Shown piece by piece: positions 1-23,519 of a stretch of DNA of 64,000 nt. The position numbers were made by a program, and so were the translations under genes. Each line of letters starts with the position of its first letter. Within the stretch, counting starts at the first letter, position 1. The stretch covers positions 1-64,000 of the forward strand of contig CAJBEZ010000038.1 in NCBI GenBank assembly GCA_903952205.1. The letters run 5' to 3'. This DNA comes from an uncultured Desulfomonile sp. (GTDB lineage Bacteria > Desulfobacterota > Desulfomonilia > Desulfomonilales > Desulfomonilaceae). The notes beneath the pieces are model-generated. The model did not search any database, was not told the origin of the DNA, and was given only the letters and a program-made list of their open reading frames with translations.

Positions 1-3000
1 AGTGGTCAGCCTCTATGTCCGTCACACTTAGCAAGTTGGCCCCTGTGAAGACCAGTGGCGTGTCCTCTGACGTCGTTACACTCGTTGGGACCGTAACCAC
101 TGGAGCGTCATCTACCGCAGCAACTGTGATCGAGATTGTTGAGTCCGCGGTTAACGGCTTGGCTGTGTCAGTTTCCACCGTATGGATCTTAATCGTAGCA
201 GGACCGTTGTATTCAGCCGCCGGCTTGAAGCTCAACGACGCCAGTTGCGAAGACACATCTGATGGCGATCCGGTTAATGTTATCGACGAAGATGTCGAAC
301 CGCCCGCTGTCAATGTCCCGTGATCAGCCGTCAAGGTCACAGACACCCTATCACTCTCAACGTCTGTTACTTTGATCAGGTTGGTTCCAGTAAACGATAT
401 CGGGGTATCCTCTGCGGTCGTCAGGTTGGTCGGAGCGGTCAATACCGGGGCGTCGTCCACTGGCGAAACATGGATATCAACCTTGGCGGGCTCGCCCAGT
501 CCCGATCCCCCTGTAGTAATACTTACGGAATTAATTTCAGCCTGGGCGGTATCCGTGGACGTATTGCTCCACGCTCTGAAACCAATTCCGCCCTCGGAGA
601 ATTTGCTGTCATAAAAATCCAGAACTTTAATCCCATCGACACTAATGACATGGTGCGAACCCTGCGCTGATATCGATATGTCATGTTCCGCGTTAAGATT
701 AAATATCTTCTCTCCATTAACGGTGACCCATGTATCTGTTCCGTCGACTAACGTCCCAACTTTGTCTGTTTTTGAATTGAAGCCTTCTTTCATGACCTGG
801 GCTATCGAAACACTGGCGGGAATGGAAGGTTCTTTTCCGTCAACAACTTCTCTCACAACAAATTTCATGCCCAATCCCGGGTCAATTTGAAAAGCATAAC
901 CAGTCGGAGTATTGCCTGTTCCTTCAGAGATCCTGTAATAAACAGCCATCCCACCACTTGTTCCACCAGTCAGCTCTGCGGAAACATCAAGAGTGAAGTC
1001 CGTGAGCGTGTCCCCGGCAACCATGACGGCTTCTCTCTGATATCCCTTCGCGGTTAAGTCTAAGGATCCGTCCAATTGATCAATTGTCCATTTTCCAGAG
1101 CTACCGAAGGCATGAACATCAGAGGCCTCGAAATGGTCATAGATGATATTTTGCGTGCCCGAATGATCGTCCGCTACATAACTGAAACTAAAATCTCGAC
1201 CCGATTGAGTTGAGTTCTCGTTGCCGTCGGCCTTGAACCAAACTTCGCCGCTAGACAGCGTTGTTCCAGCTATCAGAGGATTACGTCCGGCCAATGCGTC
1301 GGCCTGCGATGCATAAAGCTTTCCGTCGGCAGGAACCGATTTGATGACATAGGACAAACCAACCGAATCGACATCTGTGGCGCTTAAGGTAACTTTGACA
1401 GGAATATCTTCCGTCGCGTTCGCTGTTATAACAGTGGCCATAGGAAGATCATTTTCCGGGGTAACGTTTACATCTATCGTCTGGGTTCTAGTCGTGGTCG
1501 CGTCACTCACCGTCAGGGTCAGATCAGTCGCTCCATGGGCGTCATGAACTCCCGTTATCACTAACTTACCGTCAGACACGTGAGATTCCACAAGCGAGCC
1601 ATCAGATGACGTAACCTTGATATTCATTGCGCCGAAGTCCGTGTCCACGTCTGTTACGAAAGCCCTCAGGTCTATCGTTACACTTCCATCCTCAGCGAAC
1701 TTCTGAGGACCGATGTCAGTCAGCACCGGGGCGTCGTCTACCGCTGTAACTGTGACGTCTATCGTCTGGGACTTGGTGGTCGTGGCGTCCGACACTGTCA
1801 GCTTAAGCGCCGTTGCGCCAGAAGCGTTATCAATGCCTGTTACCACAAGCTTACCGTTCGTCACGTGAGATCCCACCAGCTTGCCGTCTTCGGATGTAAC
1901 GCTGATTTTCAGGGAGTTAAAATTAGTGTCCTTGTCCGTGACGTAATCCGCAAGATTAATTGCAATTTGGCCATCCTCGGCGAAGGCCTGAGTAGGAATC
2001 GGAGCGATTAACGGAGTCTGATCAATGTCGGCTACACTGAACGTAAAATCCTGAATAAGTGTATTGTGAGAGTCCGAGGCCTGAACCGTAATATTGTGGG
2101 AGCCTGAATAATTGTCCGGGAACTGGAAATTCAGGATACCGTCGGAAAGAGTGTAGGTAACCCCGCCATCAGTCAGTGAGGCGGATCCATCCGCTTGGTG
2201 CTTTATCGCATTACCTGCGCTGTCTAAGATGTCGAACTTAAGTGTTGAATCCGGATCCGCAAAGTAATCAGATAGTTTTATCTCGCTGTGAGGAGAAGTT
2301 ACTTCTACGGTCGTCGCTTCCTGGGTGACTGCCTCGGGAGCGTCATCAAATGTCAGATTTACGGCTTGATGATCACTGACAACGGACTGCGTCGATGTTT
2401 GTGATACCTGCAGATCATCCCAATATACTTTCCCCGTATCGTAACCCGGGGCCTTGTCTGTAGCCCCCCCAGCCCAATCACTTAAACCGACTTGCCCTGA
2501 AAACCCGATCGCGTTGTCGTTTTTGAAGTCTTGATCGAATATCGTAATCCCATCCACCTTGATGGTGTGATGAACGGTATCATGACCCTGGGTAAAGACA
2601 CCGTCATTATTCGAGTCTATATTTTTGACATCTATATCAATTGTGTGCCATGAATCATATATCGATTTTCCATCCATCGAATCGCCTGAGGCGCTCACGT
2701 TTTTCGCCCAACTGGCGAATGCGGTATTTTCGAATTGCGCCAATTCATCGGTGTTAGCGTTCTGATTGCCACTGACGACCTCAGATAAGCCGAATGATGT
2801 GTGCGATCCATGGGGGGTTATTTCAAATAAAAAGCCGGTGACTTTATCTGAAGCGCCTGCATCCGCGTAGTAATAGACACCGAAGCTAGGGCCCTGGTCG
2901 GCATTGAATTGAACGCTTACATGGTAATCGCTCGAATCGGCGTCCATACCCGTCATGAGATATGCCGTTTCACCGAAGTCCTTCGAGCTTTTTGATGGGT

Positions 3001-3688
3001 AGGTCAAAGTAGAAGTCAGAACCCCGTCCGTATCCCCTTCTTGTCCACCGCTGTCAGCCGTAGTCCATGTCGCTGATGATTTTGATGTTAAATGATCGAA
3101 CTGGTCACCCGAAAAGGAATCTCCTTTGTCAAAGGTTTCATTCAAGAGAACCTTTGTTTGAACTTGCGACTCGGTGGTGTGGAATTTTAGCTGCGTGTCT
3201 GTGAGTGTGCCGCCATCAGCTACGAAATAGACAGTGTCATCCTGAAGTTTCGTGGACGCGCCTTCGGCCCCTAAGCCAATTTCGTTTGTTCCTGCTTTGG
3301 CGTCCGCTTCCGTGTCATATAGTTTTCCAGCCCCGGGCATGGCGTCAATCCAGAATGCCTTCCCCCCCCCATCATCATCCGGGGCAAGGTCAATTTTTAC
3401 CGGATCACCATGCTGCGTCATTTGCTGCATTTCGGAAGATGTACCGAAATCAATGACAGCGGTCGCTATAGGAGGCGCCGCGTCAGGCGAGGCGGATGCG
3501 GCCTGAGCGCCACCAGATGGGGCTGGGGCCTCTCCTGAGGGGGCTTCAGCCTGAGCCTGAGCCTGCACTGTAACGGCGGCTACCGGTTCCGCGTTCGCGA
3601 CATCGGCCGCAAACACTATGCGGTCTTCCAGTTGCTCCATAATGATGTCAGGCTTTTTGACCCACGGTTTATCGTCAGATTTACTCAT
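1..3688 (-). CDS. Giant cadherin-like/LamG surface adhesin, 3' end beyond window
   Basis: Reading the minus strand from an ATG at 3688 gives about 1229 codons, open to the left edge, so the C-terminus is missing. A strong purine-rich ribosome site (GAGGGGAGA) lies 7 nt upstream. The N-terminus contains MEQLEDRIVFAADV, resembling the LEPR-type N-terminal motif of giant secreted proteins, followed by a low-complexity Ala/Pro/Gln stretch. Next comes a concanavalin/LamG-like segment (about residues 160-430), then tandem cadherin-like repeats ending in patterns such as AVDDAPV...EDT or AEDG, with Asp-rich linkers (DVDTDF) that suggest Ca2+ binding. A second LamG-like segment lies near residues 830-1020, followed by further repeats. 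Composition is Asp/Thr/Ser-rich and almost Cys-free. The likely role is an exported, surface-bound or released adhesin. It is the last gene of the operon that encodes its presumed exporter. The exact ligand is unknown. Confidence 0.85.
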   Translation of the reverse strand, partial: MSKSDDKPWVKKPDIIMEQLEDRIVFAADVANAEPVAAVTVQAQAQAEAPSGEAPAPSGGAQAASASPDAAPPIATAVIDFGTSSEMQQMTQHGDPVKIDLAPDDDGGGKAFWIDAMPGAGKLYDTEADAKAGTNEIGLGAEGASTKLQDDTVYFVADGGTLTDTQLKFHTTESQVQTKVLLNETFDKGDSFSGDQFDHLTSKSSATWTTADSGGQEGDTDGVLTSTLTYPSKSSKDFGETAYLMTGMDADSSDYHVSVQFNADQGPSFGVYYYADAGASDKVTGFLFEITPHGSHTSFGLSEVVSGNQNANTDELAQFENTAFASWAKNVSASGDSMDGKSIYDSWHTIDIDVKNIDSNNDGVFTQGHDTVHHTIKVDGITIFDQDFKNDNAIGFSGQVGLSDWAGGATDKAPGYDTGKVYWDDLQVSQTSTQSVVSDHQAVNLTFDDAPEAVTQEATTVEVTSPHSEIKLSDYFADPDSTLKFDILDSAGNAIKHQADGSASLTDGGVTYTLSDGILNFQFPDNYSGSHNITVQASDSHNTLIQDFTFSVADIDQTPLIAPIPTQAFAEDGQIAINLADYVTDKDTNFNSLKISVTSEDGKLVGSHVTNGKLVVTGIDNASGATALKLTVSDATTTKSQTIDVTVTAVDDAPVLTDIGPQKFAEDGSVTIDLRAFVTDVDTDFGAMNIKVTSSDGSLVESHVSDGKLVITGVHDAHGATDLTLTVSDATTTRTQTIDVNVTPENDLPMATVITANATEDIPVKVTLSATDVDSVGLSYVIKSVPADGKLYASQADALAGRNPLIAGTTLSSGEVWFKADGNENSTQSGRDFSFSYVADDHSGTQNIIYDHFEASDVHAFGSSGKWTIDQLDGSLDLTAKGYQREAVMVAGDTLTDFTLDVSAELTGGTSGGMAVYYRISEGTGNTPTGYAFQIDPGLGMKFVVREVVDGKEPSIPASVSIAQVMKEGFNSKTDKVGTLVDGTDTWVTVNGEKIFNLNAEHDISISAQGSHHVISVDGIKVLDFYDSKFSEGGIGFRAWSNTSTDTAQAEINSVSITTGGSGLGEPAKVDIHVSPVDDAPVLTAPTNLTTAEDTPISFTGTNLIKVTDVESDRVSVTLTADHGTLTAGGSTSSSITLTGSPSDVSSQLASLSFKPAAEYNGPATIKIHTVETDTAKPLTADSTISITVAAVDDAPVVTVPTSVTTSEDTPLVFTGANLLSVTDIEADH

Positions 3689-3917
3689 GGCAGATCTCCC
3701 CTCTACGCGCAGCTATATTTTTCAAAATGTGGGTCTTCCAAGGAGGATGTTACCGCGTTGTGTAGGACTATGGTCCTGGCGGCCTCTTCAGGGAAGTGTA
3801 ACTATCTAATTTTTTGGACAACAGAGCGGTTTTCCTGTTTCGCTCCTATTAAACAATTTATATACAGTGTGTAAAAGGATGCAAGATATTCTTTTGAGAT
3901 TCGGGAAATAAATCACT

Positions 3918-4304
3918 CTATCCTGATGGTAAAAATTGTAGCCCGAGCCTGTTAAGATAAATCCAGACGACTCGAGCCCGCATGGTCATATTCTCCGATT
4001 TCCGAGTTCCAATATCTTCTGACACGCTACAAGAGCCTAACCAGCGATCCTCCAGCGTCCGTAATATGTCTCTTGCATCCGGGTCCGCGATATCTTCCGA
4101 TTTCACAAGAAATTCAATCGTCACTAGGTCATTGGGGATCACGTCGAGAAACCGCGACATGTCATAATACTCAATACCAACGCCACCTGAACCGATATCG
4201 ACAAGGTCGGCCACGCAGGAACGAGACCCGGTCGAAATTTTTATAGCGCCGGGAAACCTTTTTCGATACCTCGGAGTAGCGCGTTTTTCCTTAAAATCGG
4301 ACAT
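3918..4304 (-). CDS. PilZ-domain protein (putative c-di-GMP receptor)
   Basis: 128 aa, essentially a single PilZ domain. The two c-di-GMP-contact motifs are visible: RATPR (R8xxxR12) near the N-terminus and DIGSGG (36-41), close to the canonical (D/N)x(S/A)xxG although the third position is Gly. GGGAG lies 8 nt before the ATG. The gene is 22 nt downstream of the GAF/HlyD gene and 229 nt upstream of the adhesin, all on the same strand. A PilZ receptor inside an adhesin-export operon suggests that export, anchoring or release of the adhesin responds to c-di-GMP, as in Lap-type adhesin systems, although no LapD/LapG homologue is visible. The family assignment is firm; the regulatory role is inference. 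Confidence 0.85.
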   Translation of the reverse strand: MSDFKEKRATPRYRKRFPGAIKISTGSRSCVADLVDIGSGGVGIEYYDMSRFLDVIPNDLVTIEFLVKSEDIADPDARDILRTLEDRWLGSCSVSEDIGTRKSENMTMRARVVWIYLNRLGLQFLPSG

Positions 4305-4326
4305 AGGTTTTACTCCCTAGAACATC

Positions 4327-5823
4327 CTAGAAATACAGAGAGAAGTAATTCCACGCGCCTTTAAGGCGTTGCGTGATGATGAACCAAAGACTCGTATCCA
4401 TAGTATGTATTTTGCCCACTCCTTTAAGACCAACTCTTATCGATTGTGGCGGGTCTGTGAATGGCGCTCGCACTCTGTAAACATTCCCCAACCTGGGTAT
4501 AATTTCCGGGGACGGAGCTATCTCCGCTACTCTAAGGGAATAACCCGTAAATGGAGCGCTATTCAGAAAGAACTCGATCTCCTGCTCCTTTTTCACATAG
4601 GTGATCTTACTTTCAGGCACGAGCACTTCAACCCATAACTGCCCAGGGACCGCTATCTCGCAAAACGGATCACCGGCCTTGAAACGCTTGCCCACAAGGC
4701 TGTCAACATCCCTCGTGATCACAATCCCTGAGACAGGCGCTGTTATGTCCAGAAACTGGGACCTCCATTTCAGAAACTGCAGTTCCTCCCAAATGCTCTT
4801 GCGTTTCAACTCCACCAGTTTACTCTCACCCAGCTTGGAAGGCTTTTCGCCGGCTTCCGCGCGTAGCATGGCCATTTCCCGGCTAAATACATCGAATTGA
4901 TTCTGGGCCTTTTTTATCTCAAAGGAAATATCTTTCTGATCGAGGCTGGCGAGTGTTTTACCCTGGGCAACCCGCGATCCTTCCTTCACAAATATCTTGT
5001 CGACCATACCGTCGATCTTGACAAAGGCGACGTACTTCTCCTTGGGCACAACGTCGGCCTCCCCACCAACGTTGAAATTCATTGGAATAAAGAAAAGGAC
5101 TATTATGATGAGCGCCACAAACATGCCAATGATCGGGGCCTGCCTCGTGACAATAGCCTTGAGCCTCTGGCCGGGCTTAAGTGATGGCAGTATGAACTGC
5201 TCGAGTTTTGGTTTTTTGGTCAAAAGCCACTTGTTGGCCAGGGCTGCCGCAAAAAATGGCGCGACGTTTATCATTGTAATAACGTGGATTTGGCTTGGCG
5301 GTTTGTTTTCAAGAAATTCAAAAATCAGATGGCCAACTATAGCCTTGCCCGTCTTGAGAGGCACACAGAAAAGAAACTGGCAGCCCGAGAATTCTATGTA
5401 TGACCGGAGTTCGATCTTTGCGGCCGGGTACAGCCCAAGGTCAGGGATTTTCATAGACTCGGGGTCTGATGAAAGCAACAGGCCTCGATCCATTTCCCTG
5501 ATTTGCTTACCTAGCCGCGCCACAGACTGATAGAATTTCGATTTCTTCTCTAGCAGCGGCTGATTGCTTGCGGCTGAAAACTGCGTCTTGCCGCCGAGGT
5601 GGACCACCAGGCACGCCCGGTCATACTCCATCAACGACCGTAAATCATTGGTGAGGATGAAAAAAAGTTCATCAAGCGAGCCCGCGTCCAGGGCCCTTTT
5701 CGATAATTCCAGCCCCATTGCCAAAGCTTTTTGTTTTTCGGCAACGGCAGGGGCGGCGGGACGCGGAGGCGCCGGAGGGGGAGCGGGAACCGCTGTTCCA
5801 GTGGGAATTTCGTTCTGACCCAT
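4327..5823 (-). CDS. GAF-domain/HlyD-type membrane-fusion hybrid protein
   Basis: 498 aa. After a Pro/Ala-rich start (10-28), residues about 30-205 form a GAF-like cytoplasmic domain. A single transmembrane helix follows (about 230-248, IIGMFVALIIIVLFF). The remainder is a HlyD-type periplasmic adaptor: first lipoyl half with the KEGSRVAQGKTLASLDQKD pattern, short helical hairpin, second lipoyl half (ITAPVSGIVITR), then a beta-barrel. GGAGG lies 4 nt before the ATG. It sits between the M50/HlyD gene and the pilZ gene. The topology places a possible ligand-sensing GAF domain in the cytoplasm, joined to a periplasmic adaptor, where a type I system would normally have an ABC ATPase. What the GAF domain binds cannot be told. 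Confidence 0.8.
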   Translation of the reverse strand: MGQNEIPTGTAVPAPPPAPPRPAAPAVAEKQKALAMGLELSKRALDAGSLDELFFILTNDLRSLMEYDRACLVVHLGGKTQFSAASNQPLLEKKSKFYQSVARLGKQIREMDRGLLLSSDPESMKIPDLGLYPAAKIELRSYIEFSGCQFLFCVPLKTGKAIVGHLIFEFLENKPPSQIHVITMINVAPFFAAALANKWLLTKKPKLEQFILPSLKPGQRLKAIVTRQAPIIGMFVALIIIVLFFIPMNFNVGGEADVVPKEKYVAFVKIDGMVDKIFVKEGSRVAQGKTLASLDQKDISFEIKKAQNQFDVFSREMAMLRAEAGEKPSKLGESKLVELKRKSIWEELQFLKWRSQFLDITAPVSGIVITRDVDSLVGKRFKAGDPFCEIAVPGQLWVEVLVPESKITYVKKEQEIEFFLNSAPFTGYSLRVAEIAPSPEIIPRLGNVYRVRAPFTDPPQSIRVGLKGVGKIHTMDTSLWFIITQRLKGAWNYFSLYF

Positions 5824-5880
5824 CAGGCCTCCAAAATATTGTTGTTGTTCAATTCTATCAATTTCCGCGCCACTAGGGAC

Positions 5881-7995
5881 CTAAAAAAATGACTCCCGAT
5901 TAAATACGTTAAATATCTGGTTGACGAATTTCATGAAAACAGTCTGGGGCGGAGCAGTGACCACTAACCTTCCCGTCATCCCTAGAGGAACTTCCTCTCT
6001 GTCATTGTTAAAATTAACTGAACATCTGTAAACAGCGTCGAGAGGAGAGTCCTTATGCCCCTCGCTGATGACCTCGGTGGCCAGTTCGCCGCCCATGCGA
6101 CTGGAAAACGGTGAATCCCGCAAGTCCTTTTCACTGTATGGCGCCACCTCGTCAACTTTTCCATCGAAAAAGAAACCCGTCCCGATGGGAAACCAGACCT
6201 CCGCTTCCATGCCAACCTTGACCCGATCTATGTTCAAAGCCGGGACAAGCGCGTGAACCACGCCATCTTTAATTGACTTGATTTCCCCGACGATTACTCC
6301 GTCAGCCGGCTTGTACCCCGGCTGCATACGGTAATCAAGCGAGGTCACCACACCGTTAAACGGGGCCACATTTCCGGTCCTGGCAGTCTTGAGATCTTCC
6401 TCGATCCGGCGGATTTCGTTGTCAACCTGTTTAAGCTCCGCTTCCTTGGACGGCGCCTTGCCCTTGTTCTCGTCATCAAGCAGGAGCAGTTGAACTTCCG
6501 CCTTTATTATCGAACGCTGTATCTGTTTTTGCCGTAGCGTCAGTTCGAGCTGAGTCGGGTCAAGTTCATAAAGTATCTGCCCCCTGGTTACTACTGAACC
6601 CAGCTCTATATAAACCTTGCGCACCATTGTGAGAAGCGGCACTGACAGCTTCTGGACCTGATTTGACGCCATGTAGCACGGGAATATGGACTTGCTCGAA
6701 AGTGGTATGAAAAGCGCCACAATGAAGACCGCCATAACACCCAGAAAAACCAGACCACCCTTGCGTTTAATCTTGATCTCTCCTCTCTTGGCGTAAATCG
6801 TTTTGGACCCAGTGTAGACCGGCTTAACAATGAAAAGAAAGAACGCCACAATCCCCAGTATAATGCCCAACAGCTTGTCAAACCGGTAGTAGACATTAAC
6901 CACTATCCCCGTATACAGGGAGATACGATAGGCGAAAAGGGCGAAACCATAAACTCCAAAGATTTTTCTTTCCCTGTCCGTGTTGGACGGGTCCGGATAA
7001 TTCGCCAACCCAAGGACCTTTTCCATCCATAAATGTTTTACATATTTCATGGATTTGGCCCAGAGGTTGGGAAGCTGCATATAATCGACGAATACAAAGT
7101 ACCCGTCAAATTTCATCAGTGGATTGCCATTGAAAAGCAAAGTTGAAACAAAAGACATCGCCATCATGTAAAACGCCAGCGAATTCACAATACCAGGCTT
7201 GGTGAATGTCCACACGAACGTGGCGAGGATCGCTATTACGGCTTCCGCTATTATCCCCGCGCCCGCTATCGCCATCCTTTGCCTGCGATCCCCCAACTGC
7301 CACGCGTCCGTAACGTTCGAATACAACACAGGGAAGAACATCAGGATACCAACCCCCATCTCGGGGACCCTGATTCCATAGTGTTTCGCCGTGTACGCGT
7401 GAGCGAACTCATGGATCAGCTTGCTCAATGCGATTGCCGTCCAGAGGATAAGCAGGTTATTAAAATTGAAAAAGAACAGGTAAACGTTCTTTAAGCTGTG
7501 AATGCCCGTAACCACAAAGTAAAGCGCCACAGGAAGGATTAGAAGCATGAACGTCGCAGTGTACTTGTTGACGAACAGGTCGAAGACCCACAGGGTGCGT
7601 TGCAGGAAATTGTCGGGATTAAATAGCGGTATATAACGAAAGTATACGCCGGAGAGCTGCTTCGTCCTCTTCTGCGCGTCCATCCTTTTTTTTGTGGTCG
7701 CCTGGAATTCGGACGTCCCATAACGGGTATTGAGTAGCAATCCCAGTTGTTCCGCCTTTGACATGACCAGCTTCGCGTCCGCAAGCTCGTAGAAATAACC
7801 CTGCGCCTTGAGTTTTTCCACCGCCTGCTCTATCGAGACCGTGCCATCGAGCGCCTTAAGCACGCGATACTCATATTCCGACATTCGGAAAAATTTCTCC
7901 GTGGCAAGGTCTTTGATGACGAACCTTTTGAGATCGCCTTCCTTTTCCTGGCGGAAAACCTTGAGGTCCATCCTGAGCTTGGGGTTTTGGCTCAT
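5881..7995 (-). CDS. PqqD-like / M50 site-2 protease / HlyD-like fusion
   Basis: 704 aa polytopic protein. Residues about 20-90 resemble a PqqD-like winged-helix peptide-binding domain. Residues 140-400 are membrane segments carrying an M50 site-2-protease active site: H195-E-F-A-H199 (HExxH) and N291-P-L-M-K-F-D297-G, the conserved Asp-Gly motif. A last transmembrane helix near 410-430 is followed by a HlyD-type lipoyl/coiled-coil/lipoyl/beta-barrel region (about 445-690). All catalytic residues expected of the family are present. Such PqqD-M50-HlyD hybrids are known in planctomycetes and Desulfobacterota near giant secreted proteins, but their function is not established. Here it probably handles or gates the adhesin, either cleaving it or acting as the inner-membrane part of the exporter. 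The gene starts 17 nt after the TolC-like gene ends. Confidence 0.85.
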   Translation of the reverse strand: MSQNPKLRMDLKVFRQEKEGDLKRFVIKDLATEKFFRMSEYEYRVLKALDGTVSIEQAVEKLKAQGYFYELADAKLVMSKAEQLGLLLNTRYGTSEFQATTKKRMDAQKRTKQLSGVYFRYIPLFNPDNFLQRTLWVFDLFVNKYTATFMLLILPVALYFVVTGIHSLKNVYLFFFNFNNLLILWTAIALSKLIHEFAHAYTAKHYGIRVPEMGVGILMFFPVLYSNVTDAWQLGDRRQRMAIAGAGIIAEAVIAILATFVWTFTKPGIVNSLAFYMMAMSFVSTLLFNGNPLMKFDGYFVFVDYMQLPNLWAKSMKYVKHLWMEKVLGLANYPDPSNTDRERKIFGVYGFALFAYRISLYTGIVVNVYYRFDKLLGIILGIVAFFLFIVKPVYTGSKTIYAKRGEIKIKRKGGLVFLGVMAVFIVALFIPLSSKSIFPCYMASNQVQKLSVPLLTMVRKVYIELGSVVTRGQILYELDPTQLELTLRQKQIQRSIIKAEVQLLLLDDENKGKAPSKEAELKQVDNEIRRIEEDLKTARTGNVAPFNGVVTSLDYRMQPGYKPADGVIVGEIKSIKDGVVHALVPALNIDRVKVGMEAEVWFPIGTGFFFDGKVDEVAPYSEKDLRDSPFSSRMGGELATEVISEGHKDSPLDAVYRCSVNFNNDREEVPLGMTGRLVVTAPPQTVFMKFVNQIFNVFNRESFF

Positions 7996-8012
7996 TGTTC
8001 CACCCGACGGCG

Positions 8013-9551
8013 CTACCGCGGCATTGGCTCCCTGAAATTGGTCCCCATTGCGCTTTCCAGTTCAGCGTACAGACCCATGGCCTCTCCCTGCGTTCTTATC
8101 TTTTCTATCTCTTCGTTGAGCAAATCTCCTTCTGATTCGAGTATTGCCAGCTTCTGCACCGAGTCAAGAGCCGCTCGCTCCCTCTGAATTCGCAAAACTT
8201 TCTCCGACATGCCGAGTGACTGGTCCGCTGTCTTGAGCTGATCCATAGCGTTCATGTACTTCATGGCCGAGGCCCGCACCTGAGAAGTGATGGCGAGAGC
8301 GACCGCGCCCATTTCCAGGTAAGCCTTTCTGTTTACCAGTTTTGAAGCCTTGTTCTCCCAGTAATTGACGACAAAGTCCATCAGGTCGAAATATATCTGG
8401 ACCCCTATCTCTTTCCATTCGCTGAAAAGCAGGTGAGTGTCCTCGTCTCTCGTATATCTCAGAAACAGGGTCGCTTTAGGTAAATACTTAACCATGGTTC
8501 GCTTCAGGTCATTCTCTGAATTTATGTGGTCAAGGCCCGCTTTGTAAGCCTCGGGCCTGTTCTGTATAGCAATCATTTCGAGGTGCCCGACATGATCTAT
8601 GCACGGCGGCTTGATCTCGCCCTTGAGGCAGAAGCCGCCGTCTGTGGACGCGTCCGGCGAGATGTACAGGGCTGACGCGAGCATGTTCCGCTGCTGCTCG
8701 GTTTCGTTGAGGAGATTCAGCAACATTCGCTCGGCCTTGAGGAGCTTCTGGTCCGCTTTCTGATAATCTTCTATCGACACCAGCTTCTGGCCGAACAGCT
8801 TCTGCATGCGGGAGGCCGCTTCCTTGCGGATCGACACCAGCTTCTGCGCCATTGGAACAGCTTTCTGCAGGGAGAGCATGCGGTAAAATGAGGAATCAAC
8901 AACGCCGAAGAGTTTCTGGGCTGTGCGCTCCCTAAGGTAATGTTTGTTTTTGGCGTCATTCCTGCTTGTTTTTGTCATGTAGTAAGCAAGCGCTGCGTCC
9001 GTCGGTCCCCATCGCATTTCAACGATGCTTCGGTTTATTTCCAGGTCCCGGCCCGCAGACCAAGTGCCCAGTTGGTTTACACTGTCGGAACGCGTACTTG
9101 CAGGTGAATTTCTGTTCGGAAACTTGTTCAGAGTACCATCCGCTTGAGGATACAACTGGCTAAATCCATACGAAAGAGCGTCTCTGACGCTGTATTCCCC
9201 GTTATACAGAAACTTGGGCAGCATCTTTGTGCGGTTACTGTATTCAATGGCTTTCTGGGTAAGGATTTCGAGCTGTCCCTGCTGCAGTTCAAGGCTGTTT
9301 ACCAGAGCCAGCCTGCGGCATTCATCGAGGGTAAGTTCCTTCTTCCCCAGCCTGGCCGTTGAAGGGACCAGCCTGTGTTTCTCGGTGTTGGCCATGACTA
9401 TGGACTGCGTAAGAGCCACGTCATCCACGGACTCGAACGGGTTCCTGAACATCTCCCCCATGGACGGGAGAAAGGAGCGGTTGCATGACGCCAAAAGGGA
9501 AACAACCCCTAGAAGCGTTACGCATAGGGCCGCTTTGACGGAGGACCTCAT
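8013..9551 (-). CDS. TolC-family outer-membrane channel lipoprotein
   Basis: 512 aa. It begins with a lipoprotein signal peptide ending in LLASC (C23). The body is mostly long amphipathic helices with the Leu/Ala/Gln/Lys pattern of outer-membrane efflux proteins, for example the stretches around DECRRLALVNSLELQQGQLE and LKAERMLLNLLNETEQQR. It is the only outer-membrane channel candidate of the operon and should form the exit duct used by the two HlyD-type proteins and the lipoprotein adaptor. Its start overlaps the stop of the upstream adaptor gene by 4 nt (ATGA), so translation is probably coupled. Confidence 0.85.
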   Translation of the reverse strand: MRSSVKAALCVTLLGVVSLLASCNRSFLPSMGEMFRNPFESVDDVALTQSIVMANTEKHRLVPSTARLGKKELTLDECRRLALVNSLELQQGQLEILTQKAIEYSNRTKMLPKFLYNGEYSVRDALSYGFSQLYPQADGTLNKFPNRNSPASTRSDSVNQLGTWSAGRDLEINRSIVEMRWGPTDAALAYYMTKTSRNDAKNKHYLRERTAQKLFGVVDSSFYRMLSLQKAVPMAQKLVSIRKEAASRMQKLFGQKLVSIEDYQKADQKLLKAERMLLNLLNETEQQRNMLASALYISPDASTDGGFCLKGEIKPPCIDHVGHLEMIAIQNRPEAYKAGLDHINSENDLKRTMVKYLPKATLFLRYTRDEDTHLLFSEWKEIGVQIYFDLMDFVVNYWENKASKLVNRKAYLEMGAVALAITSQVRASAMKYMNAMDQLKTADQSLGMSEKVLRIQRERAALDSVQKLAILESEGDLLNEEIEKIRTQGEAMGLYAELESAMGTNFREPMPR

Positions 9552-10684
9552 TTATCCTCCGGTTTTTCAATCTGCAGTGTCCCCACCATCCCTACAATGA
9601 GGCGCCCCCGCTCATTATCTATAAGGACCCAGACCCTTTTGGTGCGGGACTTGGGATCAATCATCGCGCCCATCTTTTCAACCGCCCCAGTGTACTTGAT
9701 CCCTTGAGCGTCTATGAAGGACGCTGGCACGCCTCTCTTGACTGCGGAAAGCGCATTTTCCGGCATGTTTGCGACAGCGAAAACCTTTGCGGTGTCAACG
9801 ATCGCGAATATCTTTTCCATCCTGTCTACAGGTTCAAATGTCTGTTTGTACTTGACGGCTATATACCCCTTAAACGGGGCTATTACCTGGCAGGCTTCCA
9901 AATTCAGTTCAGCCAGGCTCTTTTCCTTTATTGCCTTTTCCAGGCCGACCTTCGCCATCTCGAACTCTGTCTGCGCCTTGATCAGATCCTGTTTTGTGGC
10001 CGCTTCCTGGGCGAGAAGGTCCTGCATGATCTTAAGGCTTCTCTCAGCCCTTGAAACCGCCATCTCCAGCCCTTTGACCTCTTCCGCGGCCCTTTGCGCC
10101 AACAGTGTGTAGCGCTCCTTTGAAACCTCGCAGACTACCTGCCCGGAGCGGACCAGGTCCCCCTCCTCAGGATCGAAACGGTCGATGATCCCGGAGACTT
10201 CAGTTCCTATGTTGGCCGTCCTGTAGGGGTTTATGATGGTAGCCTCGACCGGTTCGCCCTCAGCCAGTTCCAGTGGCGGCAGTTCCGGTATCTTGACGCC
10301 TGAATCCGTAAACTCTATTTTTGGCGGAGCGCTTCTCCTACTTTGGGAAACGCCAGTTTGAGTCCTTTCGAAATCCTTGTCGTTGGGTTCCTCGTAAATG
10401 TTGAGGCCACCGTTTGAGCCGTTCACCGGCGGCGGACCGGGTTCAGTGGGAGGCGGCGCTAGAGGGAGGGGTTCCATTGGTTTGGATGAAACACTCGTCC
10501 CACTCGATCCTGCCGGCTGAGTCGAAGGCGTGGCCTCTCTCAACGGAACCGCGTCTGACTTGATTTCCTCTGAGGCCGGCTCTTTTTCGGGGAGGCCTTT
10601 GATTTCTTCCAATTTTGGGGATGAACAGGAAATTAAAGCGAGGAACACAAAGAGTACTGTTGCAATCCTGAGGCTCGGGGTCAT
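9548..10684 (-). CDS. RND/HlyD-type periplasmic adaptor lipoprotein
   Basis: 378 aa. Lipoprotein signal with LISC (C20), then a long Pro/Ser/Glu-rich linker to about residue 125, then a membrane-fusion protein core. The core has a first lipoyl half (about 145-190, IGTEVSGIIDRFDPEEGDLV), a helical hairpin (190-265), a second lipoyl half with APFKGYIAVKY, and a beta-barrel domain. It is the first gene of the minus-strand export operon, facing the divergent nitroreductase gene across 265 bp of AT-rich DNA that should contain the operon promoter. With the two other HlyD-containing proteins this locus has three adaptor-like proteins and one channel, an unusual ratio. Confidence 0.82.
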   Translation of the reverse strand: MTPSLRIATVLFVFLALISCSSPKLEEIKGLPEKEPASEEIKSDAVPLREATPSTQPAGSSGTSVSSKPMEPLPLAPPPTEPGPPPVNGSNGGLNIYEEPNDKDFERTQTGVSQSRRSAPPKIEFTDSGVKIPELPPLELAEGEPVEATIINPYRTANIGTEVSGIIDRFDPEEGDLVRSGQVVCEVSKERYTLLAQRAAEEVKGLEMAVSRAERSLKIMQDLLAQEAATKQDLIKAQTEFEMAKVGLEKAIKEKSLAELNLEACQVIAPFKGYIAVKYKQTFEPVDRMEKIFAIVDTAKVFAVANMPENALSAVKRGVPASFIDAQGIKYTGAVEKMGAMIDPKSRTKRVWVLIDNERGRLIVGMVGTLQIEKPEDK

Positions 10685-10949
10685 AAAGAAGTCACCTCGC
10701 CGTGTTAATAAACGCTATAGGGCCGCCGAAAGTACAGATTGGCTCTGTTATCAATATCATATACAATATATCTAGTCAATTGAATTTGTTATGGATAATA
10801 TTTCATACATTTATTAATGTCGTAAAAATGGAATCGTCTGAATTCCGGCAAGGTTAAACCGGTTAGTTTTTCAATAATTTTTGATATAAGATTGGATTTT
10901 GATTGAAATTAGACCCCTAAAATTGAGACCATTTTATTGGAGGCAAAAT

Positions 10950-21841: not shown

Positions 21842-22600
21842 CTACTGTCCCAGATAGGCTGCAATCACTTTCGGATTTGATTGTACCTCTAATGGTGATC
21901 CCTCGCCGATTTTGGACCCGAAGTCCAGAACCGTGACCGTGTCCGCAATATCCATTACCACTCCCATATCATGTTCCACCATTATAATGGTGATCCCCAT
22001 TTCCTCTTTTATATCGAGTACAAAACGGGCGATATCCTCCGTTTCCTCCACATTCATCCCGGCCACCGGTTCATCGAGCAAAAGGATCTTGGGTTTCATT
22101 GCCAGCGCCCGGCCAAACTCTACCCGTTTCTGAATTCCGTATGGAAGAGAGCCCACCGCTTTCTTGCGGACTTTCTCAATCTCAAGAAAATCAATAATTC
22201 TCTCTACCTGAAGCCTACTCTCCTCCTCCTGTCTCAAGGCTTTGCCGAAGAAGAGCGAGCATGATAAAATACCAGAAGTCATGTGGGTATGGCAGCCCAG
22301 CATCAGGTTATCTATCACGCTCATGTTGGCAAACAGTTCTATGTTCTGAAATGTGCGGGCAATTCCCTTTTCAGCAATCTCGTTGGGTTTAAGATGGGAA
22401 ATATTCTCGCCCCTAAGGAGTATTTCACCCAACGTTGGATGATAGACACCGCTGATGCAGTTAAAAAGAGATGTCTTCCCGGCCCCGTTAGGGCCAATCA
22501 CAGCATGCAATTCCCCTTCCCTGACGGTCATGTCTAGTGCGGTAAGGGCTATAATCCCACCAAAACGCAGCGAAAGGTTTTTGATCTCAAGTAGTTCCAT
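21842..22600 (-). CDS. livG: Branched-chain-type ABC transporter ATPase LivG
   Basis: 252 aa from ATG 22600, with GGTGA just upstream; a GTG two codons earlier is an alternative. Walker A GPNGAGKTS, signature LPYGIQKRVEFGRAL, Walker B ILLLDEPVAGMN, H-loop VEHDMGVVMDIAD. The long insert after the Q-loop and the C-terminal SPLEVQSNPKVIAAYLG are typical of LivG. The signature motif is the YG-type usual for this subfamily. It lies 24 nt upstream of the acyl-CoA synthetase gene. Confidence 0.88.
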   Translation of the reverse strand: MELLEIKNLSLRFGGIIALTALDMTVREGELHAVIGPNGAGKTSLFNCISGVYHPTLGEILLRGENISHLKPNEIAEKGIARTFQNIELFANMSVIDNLMLGCHTHMTSGILSCSLFFGKALRQEEESRLQVERIIDFLEIEKVRKKAVGSLPYGIQKRVEFGRALAMKPKILLLDEPVAGMNVEETEDIARFVLDIKEEMGITIIMVEHDMGVVMDIADTVTVLDFGSKIGEGSPLEVQSNPKVIAAYLGQ

Positions 22601-22615
22601 TATCACCGAATTCCG

Positions 22616-23410
22616 TTAAGACAACCAGCGTTTGCGTCGTTTATAGTGTTTGACGCCAGCGTAACTTTTTCTCTCTTGGTCGTCGCTCACGCCCAGGTAA
22701 AATTCCTTGACATCGTCGTTTTCGAGTAAGCTCTCACTAGGTCCATCCAGAACCATTTTCCCGCCCTCCATGATGTACCCGTATTGGGCAAATTTAAGGG
22801 CAACAAGAGCGTTCTGTTCCACAAGCAATATCGATGTCTTCTGTTCACTGTTAATGCGCCTGAGTATGTCGAAAATCTCCTTTACCAGCATCGGAGCAAG
22901 TCCGAGTGATGGTTCGTCGAGCATGAGCAACTTAGGACGCGACATCAAAGCTCTCCCAATCGCCAGCATCTGCTGCTCCCCTCCGCTCAAAAGCACCGCT
23001 TGCTGCTTGTAACGGCGACGAAGGTTGGGGAAATACTCCATCACCATATCGAGATCCTGCTTTGCGCCATCACGGTCTCTGCGGGTGTGCGCTCCAATCC
23101 ATAGATTTTCAACCACGTTCAGATCCGAGAAAACACGTCTACCTTCAGGAACAAGACAAATTCCCATCCTTACTATCGCGTCAGGGTCGTGAGTCGCGAT
23201 GGATCGACCCTTAAATTCAATGTCCCCCTCTGAGAGTTCACCATTCTGAAACCTGAGTATGCCGCAAATGGTTTTGAGCGTAGTAGTTTTACCTGCGGCG
23301 TTCGCTCCCAGTAGCGCGACAACTTGCCCGTCGGCAACTTCCAGTGAGATCCCTTTCAAGACCATGATCACGTTATTATAAACTACCTGGATATTGTTTA
23401 CCTTGAGCAT
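22616..23410 (-). CDS. livF: Branched-chain-type ABC transporter ATPase LivF
   Basis: 264 aa. Walker A GANAAGKTT (Ala in place of the usual Gly), signature LLSGGEQQMLAIGRAL, Walker B LLMLDEPSLGLAP, and VEQNALVALKFAQYGYIMEGG. A basic tail of about 20 residues beyond the usual end (KSYAGVKHYKRRKRWLS) is unusual for LivF. GGAGAG lies 9 nt before the ATG. It is 15 nt upstream of livG and first of the transport genes in transcription order. Confidence 0.87.
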   Translation of the reverse strand: MLKVNNIQVVYNNVIMVLKGISLEVADGQVVALLGANAAGKTTTLKTICGILRFQNGELSEGDIEFKGRSIATHDPDAIVRMGICLVPEGRRVFSDLNVVENLWIGAHTRRDRDGAKQDLDMVMEYFPNLRRRYKQQAVLLSGGEQQMLAIGRALMSRPKLLMLDEPSLGLAPMLVKEIFDILRRINSEQKTSILLVEQNALVALKFAQYGYIMEGGKMVLDGPSESLLENDDVKEFYLGVSDDQERKSYAGVKHYKRRKRWLS

Positions 23411-23519
23411 AAATAGCGCTCTCCATCTCTAAGAAGAGAAAAACATGCGACGCCTATTGCGTGCAAAGAACTCAAGCCCGGACCAACGAGCTGAATCTGG
23501 GTCAACTTTCCGTCTTCGT

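Follow-up and report, generated by a model that had tools for sequence, protein, structure and literature searches.

How does a bacterium bring a giant adhesin to its surface from a locus that has an outer-membrane channel and three adaptors, and no ABC ATPase? The question is raised by the left end of the window, a stretch of 64,000 nucleotides from an uncultured Desulfomonile sp. (contig C38, whose base 1 is window position 1). The original prediction described here six co-directional genes for a TolC-like channel, three proteins with HlyD-type domains, a PilZ protein and a giant adhesin. The reading frames agree with this: all six genes are on the minus strand, with gaps of 17, 57, 22 and 229 bases, and the adaptor and channel genes overlap by 4 bases. 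The right-hand neighbour is divergent, as had been said, and its frame begins at 10899. The features are as follows.

9548..10684, minus strand: lipoprotein periplasmic adaptor of RND-MFP type (TIGR01730, 124.5 bits against a cut-off of 94.9)
8013..9551, minus strand: TolC-like outer-membrane efflux protein, OEP (Pfam OEP, 1.9e-14)
5881..7995, minus strand: RRE/PqqD-M50 site-2 protease-HlyD fusion of 704 aa, the core of the cassette (Pfam M50 and HlyD)
7726..7995, minus strand: N-terminal PqqD-like/RRE domain of the fusion, aa 1-90, predicted to be cytosolic
7099..7413, minus strand: M50 active-site region of the fusion, from HEFAH (aa 195-199, nt 7399-7413) to NPLMKFDGY (aa 291-299, nt 7099-7125)
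5944..6708, minus strand: periplasmic HlyD/MFP domain of the fusion (Foldseek and PDB profile match)
4327..5823, minus strand: GAF-HlyD adaptor with a cytosolic GAF-like domain, one TM helix (aa 222-245) and a periplasmic HlyD domain
3918..4304, minus strand: PilZ-domain protein (Pfam PilZ, 1.8e-5)
2..3688, minus strand: cadherin-type giant, the putative cargo; first 1,229 aa, open at the contig edge
3605..3631, minus strand: LExR tag of the giant, LEDRIVFAA, aa 20-28

Four genes (channel, lipoprotein adaptor, GAF-HlyD and PqqD(RRE)-M50-HlyD) form a machine upstream of the cadherin-type giant. The TolC-like channel was confirmed by its Pfam OEP match, the HlyD-type domains by HlyD_D23/HlyD_3 (Pfam) and, in the lipoprotein adaptor, by TIGR01730, and the intact M50 site by Peptidase_M50 (4e-9) with HEFAH and NPLMKFDGY both present. 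The adaptor has a hydrophobic N-terminus and the lipobox LISC, and the OEP has the lipobox LASC. The GAF assignment is weak in the window protein alone (E 0.008) and is backed by the structure model and by relatives, 4 of the 38 family members matching GAF (best 2e-6). The PqqD part of the fusion is likewise sub-threshold in the window protein; 8 of 59 relatives match Pfam PqqD, and 7 match TIGR03859. The giant had been called a cadherin/LamG adhesin. Its cadherin half stands (Cadherin_4 in Pfam, 3.7e-22, with tand_rpt_95 in NCBIfam), while LamG gave no Pfam match. The LEPR-like motif is present as MEQLEDRIVFAADVA (aa 17-31) and is common to the cassette-linked giants.

No ABC exporter was found in the window flank examined, where the nucleotide-binding domains (NBDs) at 21845-23428 are frames of 257 and 270 aa with about 50 bits. 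The original prediction had also proposed looking left of position 1. At the right end of contig C36 there is a 430-aa minus-strand frame with an open 5' end (L147:18390-19682), whose repeats resemble those of the window giant with 62% identity over 52 aa and 35% over 135 aa; it is the sole other open-ended frame with such repeats found in a search of the genome. A sequence overlap between C36 and C38 was looked for and not found, and the join is based on repeat similarity and matching open ends, so that the frame is probably the 3' end of the window giant. If C36 joins C38, the giant is followed on its left by genes for a TRAP transporter (dctPQM) and a penicillin-binding protein, both named from sequence, and not by an ATPase.

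Relatives of the fusion were found by an alignment-based search, which was needed since a single-sequence scan of genome contigs gave no match. The first set had 103 distinct M50-HlyD loci from several phyla with 1.64 Mb of flank, and the later set had 64 loci with 1.0 Mb, of which two have the core in common with the first set. GAF-HlyD was found in 93 of the 103 and 60 of the 64 loci, the RND-type adaptor in 74 and 54, and the OEP in 56 and 37; the OEP and adaptor counts are lower bounds, as many loci end at contig edges. The fusion occurs in about a quarter of sampled Pseudomonadota (90 of 399 genomes), and also in Nitrospirota, Desulfobacterota and Planctomycetota. Gene order is OEP-adaptor-GAF-HlyD-M50 in Proteobacteria and Nitrospirota, adaptor-OEP-M50-GAF-HlyD in Desulfomonilaceae, the family of the window, and GAF-HlyD-adaptor-M50 in Planctomycetes. 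A search for the cassette in phages gave no match.

How often an ABC ATPase is missing had been left to be counted, and the exporter is not a regular member of these loci. A HlyB-type ABC ATPase was found in one of the 103 loci, L018, where it has its own HlyD and belongs to another, divergently transcribed operon on the opposite strand; the 64 later loci (1.0 Mb) have none. Three other long first-set frames with an ABC-like stretch (L027, L071, L074) scored 62-107 bits, against at least 258 bits for known ABC exporters in the same search. The refuting conditions named in the original prediction do not overturn it, and at the level of gene content the absence of an ABC exporter from the locus is supported; in function, the fusion may stand in for the ATPase.

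The ATPase could also come from elsewhere. The locus would then belong to a type I secretion system of the usual kind that shares an ABC exporter encoded at a distance, and the cassette would contribute adaptors, channel and processing protease only. Unlinked type I secretion system (T1SS) genes are reported in Legionella (PMC7730722), an LssB-type ABC over the cut-off is encoded elsewhere in 11 of 28 cassette records, and PrtD types are present in two of the re-tested cassette genomes. However, in the window genome (99.99% complete) the best LssB-model score was 315 bits against a cut-off of 693, and no PrtD match reached E 1e-90. LssB or PrtD over the cut-off was also absent from family relatives, SAR11-type genomes, Alteromonas lipolytica, Variovorax dokdonensis and Polynucleobacter, in a screen that used these two models and in which the single-cell genomes were partial. 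RTX nonapeptides, moreover, are almost absent from the giants (only L019, with 7, and L071, with 1). We consider a shared exporter unlikely.

Outside the core, the recurrent neighbours that stood out were of two kinds, frames that look like regulators, in 27 loci, and NBDs of generic ABC type, in 16. Among the clusters that could be assigned, a hidden conserved motor beside the cassette was considered and rejected, as only these two kinds stand out, and no MacB, RND or MFS inner-membrane transporter was recognised. The kinase/regulator-like cluster of the 27 loci is seen, for example, at L020:2684-4471.

The AF2 model of the fusion (pLDDT 88.8) has an RRE-like part, then a membrane region with HExxH, and then an MFP domain. 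Its N-terminal domain consists of three strands and three helices, which is the wing-plus-helix fold of RRE/PqqD. The profile of this domain gave 12 PDB matches, the best being TbiB1 (5v1u, E 0.027), with lesser matches to PqqD (3g2b, 0.73), PaaA (0.76) and TfuB1 (0.91), all of which we take to be leader-peptide-binding RRE proteins; unrelated proteins are among the 12 as well. The resemblance to leader-peptide-binding RRE domains is suggestive, no single match being significant. Helix counting would place the domain in the cytosol.

The HExxH motif was kept in 58 of 58 relatives checked, and H195, E196, H199, P292, D297, G298 and Y299 were invariant across 59 aligned rows. The NP..DGY motif had helped to pick the candidates, and HExxH played no part in selection. 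Both motifs of an M50 site-2 protease, HExxH and the NPDG-type second motif, are conserved. The HlyD domain of the fusion matched MacA (3fpp, Foldseek E 2.6e-14) and a MacA-MexA chimera (PDB profile, 2e-19). The AF2 model of GAF-HlyD (pLDDT 88.2, pTM 0.49) shows a separate alpha/beta domain N-terminal to the single TM helix, and its Foldseek match was also MacA (2.1e-17).

The nearest named protease models are those of RiPP maturation, daptide and YydH/LiaK epipeptide proteases, which have the M50 core in common with the fusion. The daptide_HExxH model (NF041824) matched aa 22-390, including most of the PqqD-like domain, with E 1e-44 and 152.7 bits, under the curated cut-off of 300 bits. It could mean that the cassette is a RiPP-like peptide exporter, whose substrate is the cleaved N-terminal tag, unconnected with export of the giant. 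The fusion differs from these families in its added HlyD domain and in scores far under their curated cut-offs. Its linkage is to giants rather than small precursors, and no modifying or other RiPP enzymes were recognised among the recurrent neighbours, which makes a peptide exporter very improbable.

The giants have an N-terminal LExR tag in common, without a Sec signal, which is a new observation. A strict pattern, E[PEQSD]R[IMLVFY][MLVFA][FLYA][DA][GA], written after the motifs had been seen, gave 39 matches in 1.49 million translated residues, while one shuffle gave 2. Of the 39 matches, 38 fell in the N-terminal 150 residues of reading frames that reach 300 aa or more. In the later set the strict tag was found in 10 of 16 giants with a visible N-terminus, with 2 matches elsewhere. 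In 11 cassette-bearing Planctomycete genomes LExLExRxLL[AS] had 31 matches against 1 for a reversed control pattern; 25 of the 29 that were fetched lay at most 75 residues from the frame start, and many proteins unlinked to the cassette start with the same tag.

Could the giants simply use Sec with an atypical signal, the cassette serving as outer-membrane exit only? The cassette has no inner-membrane motor, which would suit such a route. However, 57 tagged frames (56 giants and one GAF-HlyD frame) were scanned for a Sec-type segment of 12 residues with mean hydropathy at least 2.0, and none has one ahead of the motif; 2 of the 57 have such a segment within 90 residues. The RRE and GAF domains are also predicted to be cytosolic. 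Sec-dependent export hardly seems credible.

At the other end of the giants, a [FL]SxQ[LV]-like motif is suggestive. The pattern was set post hoc on proteobacterial giants, where 22 of 28 had such residues in the last 60 aa against 2.4 expected; in held-out giants it was 8 of 25 against 1.9 expected. As a separate observation, giants of the window's family (L122, L021 and the C36 fragment) have a short repeated C-terminal element of the type [IF]Dxxxx[FVL]x[DE]L.

The LEPR-XLL/DUF4347 giants belong to the same cargo class, with the same kind of N-terminal tag and DUF4347 in many. Unlike the cassette, LEPR-XLL/DUF4347 is a named protein domain, with no export system described in the open-access literature searched. 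A Vibrio giant of this type carries RTX (PMC10868602). Among 297 Desulfobacterota genomes the fusion was present in 14, DUF4347 in 13 and both in 11, where chance gives about 0.6, and several of the pairs are physically linked, one with a 15,080-aa frame. This open frame (G170:C1:95473, start in L150:19125) has the N-terminus FETLENRVLLSG and is followed by M50-HlyD at 142686. In Variovorax (CP063167, L015:1-10694) a cassette-linked tandem-95 gene is annotated across 48.7 kb of the record.

The window genome has a second cassette on contig C71, with adaptor, OEP, M50-HlyD (47% identity to the window fusion) and GAF-HlyD, divergent from a giant of 5,102 aa with DUF4347 and the N-terminus FEQLEERIVLDAA. 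A third tagged N-terminus, LEERIVLDA, is on C105 as a 335-aa stump (L148:9084-10088), possibly of a broken giant, next to a minus-strand frame resembling a transposase by sequence. The same genome has four long ABC exporter frames of 735-983 aa in succession at G000:C8:44823-59930, whose lengths and partial matches to LssB resemble those of bacteriocin-type exporters that contain a peptidase.

In E. coli the cassette is a compact five-gene mobile unit. The four export genes were found at 99.8% identity in 24 of 5,426 genomes, mostly plasmid-borne, and 22 genomes cover at least 80% of the query. Remnants of IS and Tn3 elements flank one chromosomal copy, which is accompanied by its giant, starting MTTIKNSRLRPRAHRFALESRQLFDGAA. 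Near-identical cassettes were seen in E. coli, Citrobacter and Hafnia, on plasmids as well as in chromosomes (L214:8918-26296, E. coli KMi029; L017). These near-identical enterobacterial copies point to recent horizontal spread. IncHI RSP Ig-like proteins were considered as the same system and rejected, as the published work reports that they leave the cell by way of the T4SS ATPase TrhC and says nothing of TolC or HlyD (PMC6764697, PMC8730810).

The PilZ gene had led the original prediction to an alternative in which the M50 protein processes an anchor of the adhesin in response to c-di-GMP. No homologue of the window PilZ was found at E<=1e-3 in the other first-set loci. The PilZ gene is a local addition to the window operon, outside the conserved core, and c-di-GMP control was rejected as a core feature. 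Of the earlier interpretation, the ABC-less locus holds, and c-di-GMP response as a general feature is not supported.

Even so, the cassette might retain and release giants that arrive otherwise, the HlyD and channel parts holding the tag until M50 cuts it. This is an analogy with LapD/LapG, where a protease also meets a giant adhesin with N-terminal handling, and the conserved, intact protease, the tag being N-terminal and not internal, and the PilZ in the window operon would fit it. The Lap protease, LapG, is a cysteine protease of the periplasm whose activity is controlled through c-di-GMP (PMC7730722), whereas the cassette protease is an intramembrane metalloprotease and PilZ is in the window operon only. 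In addition, the loci show no second route of export, a Sec-type signal is missing from the giants, and a full OEP with three adaptors exceeds the needs of a tether. A retention device is thus a rather improbable explanation.

Among known systems, the T1SS of giant adhesins (LapA/LapBCE, SiiE, RTX) is alike in its TolC-like channel, HlyD-type adaptor, giant repeat adhesin in the locus and cargo without a Sec signal. The cassette has this adaptor and channel but no HlyB/LapB ABC ATPase; it has three adaptors instead of one, an RRE-M50 fusion and an N-terminal tag, with RTX almost absent. It therefore fails T1SS membership on the defining feature, the ABC exporter. MacAB, RND and EmrAB pumps share the adaptor and channel folds (best Foldseek matches MacA, MexA and EmrA). 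The cassette may work in part like a tripartite exporter, but it has no recognised MacB, RND or MFS transporter and its cargo is a giant protein. No described export route for the cassette was found in the open-access literature searched.

What is observed is a four-gene set that is conserved and linked to tagged giants, the tag itself, the domains of the fusion, its conserved protease residues and the lack of a linked ABC. From these we favour, with some reserve, a self-contained export or display machine for giant surface proteins with an N-terminal LExR tag, whose secretion function and mechanism we infer from sequence. The giant would be made without a Sec signal, and in the cytosol the RRE/PqqD part of the fusion would bind its tag, as RRE domains do with RiPP leader peptides. 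Binding of peptides by RRE domains is described in PMC12710340. The M50 membrane domain would engage the tagged N-terminus and cut it, either when the giant docks or later, to set the complete protein free. Stacked on the TolC-like channel, the HlyD domain of the fusion, GAF-HlyD and the lipoprotein adaptor would form a periplasmic funnel, and the GAF domain would be a cytosolic input. The giant would be threaded outward and fold outside with its cadherin/Ig-type repeats, and folding could give part of the driving force. The fuller proposal is somewhat less probable than its opposite: a distinct pathway, in which RRE reads LExR and an ABC-free M50-HlyD/GAF-HlyD complex moves giants across both membranes, and which in Planctomycetes would serve unlinked tagged proteins.

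If true, a large share of Gram-negative bacteria would export their largest proteins by a machine that is annotated piecemeal as "efflux adaptor", "TolC" and "peptidase". One sorting signal and one receptor would serve both the LEPR/DUF4347 giants and the LExLExRxLL proteins of Planctomycetes, and RRE domains would extend from peptide natural products to protein export. It would then also have to be asked, and could be tested, how proteins as long as 15,000 residues move without a dedicated ATPase.
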